In this document: positions 901 to 32,013 of the stretch, one piece after another
Position numbering within the stretch: the stretch's first letter is position 1
Layout of the letters: every line of letters begins with the position of its first letter
Source: Armatimonadota bacterium
GTDB lineage: Bacteria; Armatimonadota; JAAZEB01
Assembly: GCA_016199585.1 (NCBI GenBank)
Contig: JACQGM010000134.1
Span: forward strand, 1 to 32,013
DNA length: 32,013 bases
Reading direction: 5' to 3'
The notes under the pieces: model-generated
What the model saw: only the letters and a program-made list of their open reading frames with translations
Database searches by the model: none
Told to the model about the DNA's origin: nothing
Made by a program: the position numbers and the translations under genes

Positions 901-2250
901 ATGCCGAAGGAAGCCGATGCCATGCGCGCCCTGCGCGAGGCGCTGAGCCACTCCCCCGACAACGTGCCCCTGCGTCGGCACCTGGCGGAGACCCTCGTCT
1001 CCCTGGGCGAGTTCGACGAGGCGGAGAAGGAGTTCCGCCGCGTCCTTCAGCTCGCCCCGAACGACACGCGCGCCAAGCTCGGCCTGGCGGAGGCCTACCA
1101 TGCCCGGGGCCGGCACCATGTCGCCCTCGCCGTGCTGGAGGACCTCCTCTCCGCCCCCGAGGCCACCGGCGCCGCCCACCTCCTCCACGCCCGCGTGCTC
1201 CTCAAGACCGGGCAGGTCGGCGCCGCCGTCCGCGCCTACCGCCAGGCGGTCGAGACAGACCCCTCGCTGGCCGACGATGCGCTCGCCGAGGCGCTGGGCG
1301 TGGATGCCGGAATCGAGAGCGCCGCCGAGGTGGTGGAGGGCCGGGTGCGCGCCCTCGACGGCGAGGCGGGCGACACGCTCACGGAGCTGGAGCGGCCGGG
1401 GCTCACCTTCGCCGACGTCGGCGGGATGGACGCGGTGAAGGAAGAGATCCGCATGAAGATCATCTACCCGCTCACCAACCGCGACCTCTACGCCGCCTAC
1501 GGCAAGCCGGTCGGCGGGGGCATCCTGATGTACGGCCCGCCCGGGTGCGGCAAGACCTACCTGGCACGCGCCACCGCCGGGGAGATCCGCGCCGGCTTCC
1601 TCGCCGTCGGGCTGCACGACGTGCTCGACATGTGGATCGGCCAGAGCGAGCGCCGCCTGCACGAAATCTTCGAGCAGGCGCGCCGCACCCGTCCCTGCGT
1701 CCTCTTCTTCGACGAGGCCGACGCCCTCGGCGCCAGCCGCAGCGACATGCGCCACAGCGGCGGCCGCCAGATCATCAACCAGTTCCTCGCCGAGCTGGAC
1801 GGCGTGCAGGCATCCAATGAGGGCGTCCTCGTTCTGGCGGCCACCAACGCCCCTTGGCACCTCGATCCCGCCTTCCGCCGTCCTGGGCGCTTCGACCGCG
1901 TCCTCTTCATCCCGCCGCCCGATGCCCCCGCGCGCGCCGCCATTCTCGAGATCTTGCTGAAGGGCAAGCCGCTGGAGAAGGTGGACCATGCGCAGGTGGC
2001 CGCGAAGAGCGATGGCTTCTCCGGCGCCGACCTGAAGGCGGTGGTGGACGTGACCATCGAGGCGAAGCTGCGCGAGGCGATGAAGCGCGGCGTGCCCCAG
2101 CCTATCGGCACGCGCGACCTCCTGGCCGCCGCCCGCGGCGTGAAGGCATCCACCCGCGAGTGGTTCGCCACGGCCCGCAACTACGCCCTCTACTCCAACC
2201 AGGGCGGCATCTACGACGACATCCTGCACTACCTGGGGCTGAAGAAATGA
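901..2250 (+). CDS. TPR-containing AAA+ ATPase
   Basis: A cytosolic ATPase of 449 residues. The first 170 or so residues are helical TPR-type repeats (for example the stretch around AEKEFRRVLQLAPNDTRA). The rest is a classical AAA module related to the p97/Cdc48/spastin group: Walker A GPPGCGKT (G212 to T219, K218), Walker B VLFFDEAD (D271, E272), and a second region of homology ending PAFRRPGRFDR, with arginines 326, 327, 330 and 333 available as fingers. The ATG at 901 follows GGGAAGGA by 8 bases. The next gene starts inside its stop codon (ATGA), so the two products are probably made in fixed ratio and may work together. The substrate is unknown. By family logic it remodels or unfolds a partner recognised through the TPRs; that role is inference. 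Confidence 0.9.
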   Translation: MPKEADAMRALREALSHSPDNVPLRRHLAETLVSLGEFDEAEKEFRRVLQLAPNDTRAKLGLAEAYHARGRHHVALAVLEDLLSAPEATGAAHLLHARVLLKTGQVGAAVRAYRQAVETDPSLADDALAEALGVDAGIESAAEVVEGRVRALDGEAGDTLTELERPGLTFADVGGMDAVKEEIRMKIIYPLTNRDLYAAYGKPVGGGILMYGPPGCGKTYLARATAGEIRAGFLAVGLHDVLDMWIGQSERRLHEIFEQARRTRPCVLFFDEADALGASRSDMRHSGGRQIINQFLAELDGVQASNEGVLVLAATNAPWHLDPAFRRPGRFDRVLFIPPPDAPARAAILEILLKGKPLEKVDHAQVAAKSDGFSGADLKAVVDVTIEAKLREAMKRGVPQPIGTRDLLAAARGVKASTREWFATARNYALYSNQGGIYDDILHYLGLKK

Positions 2251-27421: not shown

Positions 27422-27545
27422 AACCGCAGATACACGCGAATAGACGCGAATGGGCTCTGAAGTGGAGGCATCCCGTGGCCTGCGGTGGACCGCGGCGAGA
27501 GCCTGGTTCCTATCCATTCCCGTTCATTTGCGTTCATTCGCGGTT
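27422..27545. repeat. Inverted-repeat element (R3) between vapC and folC
   Basis: Arms 27422-27453 and 27514-27545 are reverse complements at 24 of 32 positions around a 60-base centre. Each arm is built of a 10-base unit used twice (ACGCGAATAG/ACGCGAATGG, and CGTTCATTTG/CGTTCATTCG). It fills the folC upstream region; its left edge abuts a possible -10 box TAGAAT (minus strand, 27420-27415). Confidence 0.7.
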
Positions 27546-30754: not shown

Positions 30755-32013
30755 CTACCCCCGCAGCACCGCCAGCCGCGCGCGTAGCGCCCGGTGGCGC
30801 TCGGCCAGCTCCGCCTGGCGCTGACGGTCCTTCTCTACCACGGCCGGCGGGGCCTTCGTCAGGTACTGCTCGTTGGCCAGCTTGGCGTTGAGGCGCTGGA
30901 CCTCTTTCCCCAGGCCCTCCATCTCGCGGGTGAGGCGCTGGACCTCCGCGTCAATATCCACCAGGCCGGCGAGGGGCACAAGGGCCTGCACGCCCGCCAC
31001 GGCGCGCGAGAGTGCCTGGCGGTGCTGCTGCGCCGCCTCGGGGCTCTCGAAGCGGACCTCGTCCACGCGCGCCAGGCTGCGGATATAGCCGCTCCACGGC
31101 TCCAGACGGGCCACCTCGCCATCGGCCGCCCCCAGGATGGCCGTCGGGATGGGGCGCGACGCGGGCACGTTCATCTCGGCGCGCATGTTGCGCAGCGCGG
31201 TGATGACCTCCATCACCTGCGCCATGTCGCGCTCGGCATCCTCGTCCACGCACTCCGGGTCGAACTCCGGGAAGTCAGCCACCATGATGCTCTCTCCCGC
31301 CCCCGGCAGCTTCCGCCAGATCTCCTCGGTGATGAAGGGCATGTAGGGGTGCAGCAGTCGCAGCGACTGGTCGAGCACGTGCAGGAGGAGGCCGCGCACA
31401 GTCCCGTCCCCCTCGCGCAGGCGCGGCTTCGCCAGCTCCACGTACCAGTCGCAGTACTCGTTCCAGAGGAAGGCATAGAGCGCCTTCGCCGCCTCGTCGA
31501 AGGAGTACTCCGCGAACGACCGGTTCACCGTCTCGATGGTCCGGTGCAGCCGGGAAAGGATCCAGCGGTCGGAGAGTTCGGAGTGCGGAGTTCGGAGTTC
31601 GGAGTTCGGAGTGCCGAGTGCCGGTTGCTGAGCGCCCTTGCCCGGCTCCGCACTCCGCACTCCGCACTCCGAACTCATATTCATCAGCACAAACCGCGCC
31701 GCGTTCCAGATCTTATTGGCGAAGTTGCGGCTCGTCTCGCAGAGGGGGGCGCGGATCGGGTCGCCGGGCTTGCGGCGGCCGTCGTCGAAGCGCATGTCCT
31801 GGGTCTTGCCGGCCTGCATCGTGATGGCGAAGCGCGTGGCGTCGGTGCCGTACTGCGCGGTCAGGTCGAGCGGGTCAATGCCGGTGCCGAGGGACTTGCT
31901 CATCCGCTTCCCCTCCCGGTTGAGCACGGTGGCGTAGATATACACGTCGCAGAACGGGATCTCGTCCAGGAACTTGAGGCCCGTCATGATCATGCGCGCC
32001 ACCCAGAAGAACA
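30755..32013 (-). CDS. valS: Valyl-tRNA synthetase, C-terminal part, with in-frame repeat insertion
   Basis: Incomplete at the right edge; about 419 codons are present. Visible are the KMSKS loop (RMSKSLG, near 31890), the YGTDATRFAI stem-contact region, the anticodon-binding domain (SDRWILSRLHRTIETVNRSF, LWNEYCDWYVELAKPRL, PYMPFITEEIWRKLP), and the C-terminal coiled-coil arm (MEGLGKEVQRLNAKL) that grips the tRNA in valyl enzymes. It charges tRNA-Val and is essential. Between NAARFVLMNM and SDRWILSRLH, where relatives have a short variable loop, lie 34 extra residues (SSECGVRSAEPGKG and the rest) encoded by a 103-base hairpin repeat. The frame is kept, so the enzyme is presumably active with a surface loop added. 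Confidence 0.93.
   Translation of the reverse strand, partial: FFWVARMIMTGLKFLDEIPFCDVYIYATVLNREGKRMSKSLGTGIDPLDLTAQYGTDATRFAITMQAGKTQDMRFDDGRRKPGDPIRAPLCETSRNFANKIWNAARFVLMNMSSECGVRSAEPGKGAQQPALGTPNSELRTPHSELSDRWILSRLHRTIETVNRSFAEYSFDEAAKALYAFLWNEYCDWYVELAKPRLREGDGTVRGLLLHVLDQSLRLLHPYMPFITEEIWRKLPGAGESIMVADFPEFDPECVDEDAERDMAQVMEVITALRNMRAEMNVPASRPIPTAILGAADGEVARLEPWSGYIRSLARVDEVRFESPEAAQQHRQALSRAVAGVQALVPLAGLVDIDAEVQRLTREMEGLGKEVQRLNAKLANEQYLTKAPPAVVEKDRQRQAELAERHRALRARLAVLRG
31574..31676. repeat. Hairpin repeat (R4) inserted in frame in valS
   Basis: Left arm 31574-31615, GAGTTCGGAGTGCGGAGT and more, is made of 7-base units GGAGTTC and GGAGTGC. Right arm 31644-31676 is its reverse complement over the first 18 outermost bases and again in units further in. 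The centre (31616-31643) is unrelated. The whole element encodes 34 residues and ends exactly at conserved valS sequence on both sides. Confidence 0.85.

Follow-up and report, generated by a model that had tools for sequence, protein, structure and literature searches.

The stretch of DNA analyzed here, called the window throughout, comprises 32,013 nucleotides of a contig from an Armatimonadota bacterium (JACQGM010000134.1, positions 1 to 32,013) and contains near its end part of valS, the frame of which is truncated by the end of the contig and otherwise intact. Pfam domains identify the 418-residue frame as ValS (tRNA-synt_1, residues 1-76; Anticodon_1, 148-290; Val_tRNA-synt_C, 352-416), and a palindromic element of 103 bp corresponds to residues ~112-146, between the class I core and the anticodon domain, with the host frame kept open through it (table 1). 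The first-pass annotation of this DNA had described just such a palindrome of 7-base units lying in frame inside valS, and its position, unit size, palindromic nature and place between the domains are all borne out: The arms have a period of 7, their outer 18 bp are perfect reverse complements, and the RNA fold of the element reaches -70.5 kcal/mol (z = -6.1), a value that 0 of 200 shuffled sequences matched. The period-7 run of the left arm, given in table 1 at the lenient setting, is 31579-31614 at the strict one. With up to one mismatch allowed, GGAGTKCGGAGT has 10 matches in the window where 0.5 would be expected; every one of them falls inside the valS element, and a period scan of the window found no 7- or 8-bp arrays outside it. 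Two inverted stretches with a 10-bp period, ATACACGCGAATAGACGCGAATGG and CATTCCCGTTCATTTGCGTTCATTCGCGGT, lie at 27430-27544 of the window and may form another hairpin, built of a longer unit.

Table 1. Positions of the valS element, its parts and comparable heptad tracts (window coordinates unless a locus is named).
Feature	Position	Strand	Basis or remark
valS, C-terminal 418 residues	30755..32011	-	Translation, Pfam, alignment with 29 relatives
Heptad hairpin element in valS	31574..31676	.	Palindrome of 7-bp units
Left arm, ~7 units GGAGTTC/GGAGTGC	31574..31623	+	Period-7 run, lenient setting
Central loop without heptads	31624..31643	.	Period-7 signal absent between arms
Right arm, inverted units GCACTCC/GAACTCC	31644..31677	-	Period-7 run; complementary to left arm
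Other heptad arrays at the ValS loop	L031 1835-1866; L047 552-580		Two other Armatimonadota
RACo inserts	L004 1501-1534 and about 1301-1345		Same genome as valS element

Since the frame is intact, we infer that translation runs through the insert and yields a surface loop, for which GAQQPALGTPNSELR and TPHSELSDR are among the predicted tryptic peptides. Survival in frame would have been easier because five of the six reading frames are open across the element. Given the perfect 18-bp stem, cutting of the hairpin RNA by RNase III is possible, and the central stretch between the arms may be what is left of the native ValS loop.

ValS is present in 60 of 61 Armatimonadota genomes, and 30 of its sequences were aligned. 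The two closest relatives, which belong to the same family and are 73-75% identical, have no element and a loop of 20 residues versus 36 in the present ValS. The absence from close relatives foreseen in the first-pass annotation is thus found, but the gain of 34 residues that it had deduced is not: The net gain is 16, and this difference implies that part of the native ValS loop was replaced or overwritten. With native residues replaced and no clean insertion, a target duplication is not definable at this copy. The 34 residues are not conserved in distant ValS proteins, and two distant Armatimonadota carry different heptads at the same loop, namely four copies of AAATCTC (G045) and six of a GGACTGG type (G059). 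As these alignments indicate, the ValS loop is a permissive site that has been struck at least three times.

The evidence for the source genome (G000) comes from sampled stretches and pattern searches in an assembly that is ~80% complete. Pattern search finds the GGAGTTC/GGAGTGC unit at several further places, including sites inside genes, as had been anticipated from the window. The same search across 121 genomes of the phylum finds it absent from 119, both family members among them, and the only other carrier is G005. A second unit, AATCTGA, occurs at ~30 sites in the source genome, where the reversed control pattern gives 0 matches. A 0.64-Mb sample of this genome has 13 runs of period 7 and 12 of period 8; period 12 gives 7 runs, period 6 gives 4, and periods 5, 9, 10, 11, and 13 give 0-2. 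Many copies are intergenic, and several lie in frame inside genes: RACo has an in-frame heptad insert together with a second insert of 8-bp units, neither of which is present in relatives, and further tracts are found in a squalene-hopene-cyclase-like protein and in the N-terminal part of a DUF58 protein. The four sites of G005 all fall within genes and keep the frame; they are in a pyruvyl transferase, the linker of an epimerase-dehydrogenase fusion, an O-antigen-ligase/TPR protein, and LplA. In LplA (L341) heptads stand in place of native residues and the net gain is 1-3, as if the repeat had overwritten its target. Heptad arms can also be read as the ends of neighboring proteins, such as the C-terminus of an S23p (L118) and the N-terminal part of the DUF58 protein (L026).

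Dispersed copies, in-frame tracts and relatives without insert support the earlier proposal that the spread of a repeat adds protein loops in this lineage. The underlying notion of a dispersed palindromic repeat also stands, but it needs to be qualified, for the class is defined by inverted tandem heptads rather than by one palindrome sequence, as the other heptads at the same ValS loop in two genomes indicate. Could the loop instead be a selected functional feature, for example in tRNA binding or in regulation by an mRNA hairpin, that is palindromic by chance? Its intact and in-frame condition in an essential gene would fit this explanation, yet both close relatives do without the insert, different heptads take its place in two further genomes, and its peptide words recur in the unrelated RACo, LplA, pyruvyl transferase and epimerase-dehydrogenase fusion. 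We consider a selected loop very improbable.

S23p (PF05635/TIGR02436) is familiar chiefly from the intervening sequences that interrupt 23S rRNA. The source genome has four genes for this four-helix-bundle protein, also called IVP, and heptad arrays of units other than that of valS adjoin three of them. Among 70 S23p loci of Armatimonadota, short tandem arrays lie within ~450 bp at 41, with none at the threshold used at the remaining 29; 52 period-7 runs fall within 300 bp of the genes (41 kb) versus 6 in the 157 kb farther off, a density 33 times higher near the gene in a comparison by distance in which the share of intergenic DNA is unmatched. The same type of comparison gives a 12-fold higher density near the gene for 80 named loci from Acidobacteria, Verrucomicrobia, Planctomycetes, Cyanobacteria, Deltaproteobacteria, and others (arrays at 41, none at the threshold used at 39). 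The flanking units are mostly 7-mers, sometimes 8- or 10-mers, and where the phylum loci have arrays on both sides, these are in most cases complementary and inverted, as in AAGTCGA/CGACTTT, TGGTGCC/GGCACCA, and TGAGTTT/AAACTCA. Moreover, the similarity of heptads rises with the identity of the S23p proteins, also for pairs from different phyla (Mantel r 0.51, permutation sd 0.06, reverse-complement control -0.08). One unit, AGTCGAA, flanks S23p in two genomes (G017 and G076), both of which also contain gene-less copies of it, whereas only 2 of the other 119 genomes have it (P = 0.0008); the gene-less copies of G017 are inverted pairs, and one lies in frame within an open frame of unknown function. 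Most units in the named clade resemble CAGGAGT/CAGAAGA, and the heptamer of the Coxiella intervening sequence (IVS), GACAGAT, when rotated equals CAGAAGA at 6 of 7 positions (PMC4990558).

The gene-bearing form carries S23p alone, a protein with structure matches to PDB 2GSC and 2RLD and with no known catalytic site, and no transposase or obligate partner of the gene-bearing elements was found. Phages gave no match for S23p, and among the sampled loci only two isolated single-motif matches, at chance level, pointed to a position inside 23S rRNA. Reverse transcriptase was considered as an obligate partner and rejected, the link being weak at most: RVT_1 matches occur in 24 of 61 genomes with S23p versus 13 of 60 without (Fisher P 0.048, uncorrected for genome size). 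The 37 S23p genomes with no such match include many incomplete drafts.

The most direct view of these elements as discrete units comes from cyanobacterial plasmids. In plasmid C of Trichormus, an S23p gene with heptad arms sits between two genes of the conjugation region, and ~97% identical plasmids do not have it; the cleanest pair, with a Tolypothrix plasmid, gives a net difference of 428 bp and a 5-bp direct repeat, GTAAT. A Nostoc pair differs by 417 bp. In Nostoc N6 a gene-less heptad hairpin of 182 bp splits an S23p gene, which Nostoc ATCC 53789 has uninterrupted. The heptads that accompany S23p are TCAGGAG/TCAGAAG in Nostoc ATCC 53789 and AGGGAGT in Nostoc edaphicum. Other S23p elements lie between nrdB and nrdA and, inside type III-B and type I-D cas operons of cyanobacterial plasmids (L349, L356), between cas10 and cmr3 and between cas6 and cas4; in relatives the corresponding sites are empty. 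As far as comparison of sequences can tell, these plasmid pairs are direct evidence for the insertion of heptad elements. The trb site has a decayed S23p copy (L361, about 1160-1280), and a second S23p element occupies a different site of the same plasmid region (L366, 1128-1505).

It could nevertheless be argued that nothing was inserted in valS, the heptads having grown locally in its loop as replication slipped and switched templates at a quasi-palindrome, and that S23p genes merely lie in repeat-rich intergenic DNA. The tracts of LplA and ValS, which overwrite native residues with little net gain in length, would fit local growth; unit copy number differs even between close copies (L351 vs L352), and hairpin centers compared by eye have no conserved core. 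This explanation does not account as readily for a single unit that recurs at dispersed sites within one genome and not in relatives, for the covariation of heptad and S23p across phyla, or for discrete insertions of 417-428 bp and 182 bp at otherwise empty sites. We give local growth a small but real chance.

Small non-autonomous hairpins that are dispersed with the help of a protein acting in trans are familiar as miniature elements of the MITE kind and as REP/REPINs. The valS family shares with MITEs its terminal inverted repeats and several dispersed copies, and a conventional element of this type, moved by a transposase in trans with S23p as a frequent passenger, would also be consistent with the coexistence of gene-less and gene-bearing forms. 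The GTAAT repeat of the Trichormus/Tolypothrix pair may be a target site duplication, a MITE trait, but a clear duplication is absent from the Nostoc pair and from the other clean filled and empty pairs. No transposase or RAYT was identified, and the arms are short tandem arrays rather than a fixed terminal repeat. In several unrelated contexts S23p is the sole annotated gene of the inserted unit, and the arms vary by locus while tracking the sequence of the protein, which a foreign transposase would not explain. A conventional transposase-driven element has, in our judgment, a slim chance of being the answer.

In comparison with other known systems, the valS element acts like a Rickettsia palindromic element, an analogy already drawn in the first-pass annotation and fair in functional terms, while its architecture groups with the S23p/IVS kind. 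The Rickettsia elements are palindromes of ~100-150 bp (about 105-146 bp) that are either intergenic or fused in frame in conserved protein genes, and occur also in RNA genes (Ogata et al. 2000, reviewed in PMC2229807). The valS family is alike in having a 103-bp palindrome with both in-frame and intergenic copies. However, its arms are tandem heptads, the unit of which changes between genomes, and a gene-bearing S23p form exists; homology is made unlikely by the construction from heptads and by the changing unit, and the Rickettsia elements are set apart also by their description as Rickettsia-specific, with their own sequence and 12-bp terminal repeats (PMC2229807). The IVS in the 23S rRNA of Coxiella has 428 nt, the size of the plasmid insertion; its long terminal inverted repeats form a stem and enclose S23p, which tandem heptamers precede, and known S23p IVSs (Coxiella, Leptospira) lie in 23S rRNA helices and are removed by RNase III (PMC4990558). 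An inverted-repeat stem with tandem heptamers is common to the valS element, but sites of its family are between or inside protein genes, and we file the valS copy as a gene-less variant rather than an IVS because it is outside 23S rRNA and without S23p.

Dispersed arrays of 7-bp tandem units have been described for GGGAATC in Xanthomonas and GGGGAYT in Nostoc, with 70 inverted paired arrays in X. campestris; they are presented as mainly intergenic and of G-quadruplex type, with no association with mobile elements found (Rehm et al. 2015, PMC4692102). The valS element resembles them in its inverted pairs of 7-bp units, but GGAGTTC/GGAGTGC differs from GGGAATC and has G runs of two only, and the portion of that account drawn on here mentions neither a link with S23p nor in-frame insertions into proteins (PMC4692102). 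Avd, which acts in the retrohoming of diversity-generating retroelements, is homologous to PF05635 (PDB 2GSC; PMC10053308). Unlike Avd systems, the inserted S23p unit comes without a reverse transcriptase, and the absence of an RVT_1 match from 37 of 61 genomes suggests that such an enzyme in trans is not generally needed.

The valS hairpin is probably a gene-less copy of a small mobile hairpin family whose full form carries S23p, although it is linked to S23p by class and not by identity, since none of the S23p genes found in G000 (~80% complete) has GGAGTKC arms and the best match in other genomes is 6 of 7. The gene-bearing form was out of sight for the first-pass annotation. The grounds for this reading at sequence level are the two forms themselves, the covariation of unit and protein across phyla, a unit common to gene-bearing and gene-less copies, and the filled and empty sites. 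The arms of the family are tandem units of 7 bp, sometimes 8 or 10 bp, in inverted orientation, enclosing in the full form of ~420-430 bp a single gene for S23p/IVP. How the elements move we can only infer. S23p, which is stated to be a pentamer (PMC4990558) and is homologous to Avd, would bind its own heptad hairpin, either in RNA or in single-stranded DNA form, and in trans promote the copying of the hairpin into new sites, with gene-less hairpins riding along. The copy in valS would then owe its tolerance to its mostly open frames and to its place in a variable inter-domain loop.

More tentatively, and at somewhat less than even chances, S23p genes and heptad hairpins may constitute one widespread class of transposase-free mobile elements, in which an Avd-like pentamer recognizes its own stem and host replication or repair does the copying; the 23S rRNA IVS, the heptamer repeats and in-frame loops such as that of ValS would be three faces of this class. 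In a search of open-licence PMC papers, S23p and heptad arms were joined only in the heptamers of the Coxiella IVS. Decades after their discovery, the function and origin of S23p and its IVSs are described as unclear (PMC4990558), and over-represented heptamer repeats of bacteria have received little study so far (PMC4692102). Both questions would become testable if S23p and the heptamers belong together, with each S23p predicting its own heptad. The repeat is, furthermore, a way in which essential enzymes gain new protein loops in bacteria other than Rickettsia and Wolbachia, and close relatives of the present ValS keep the older, shorter loop.
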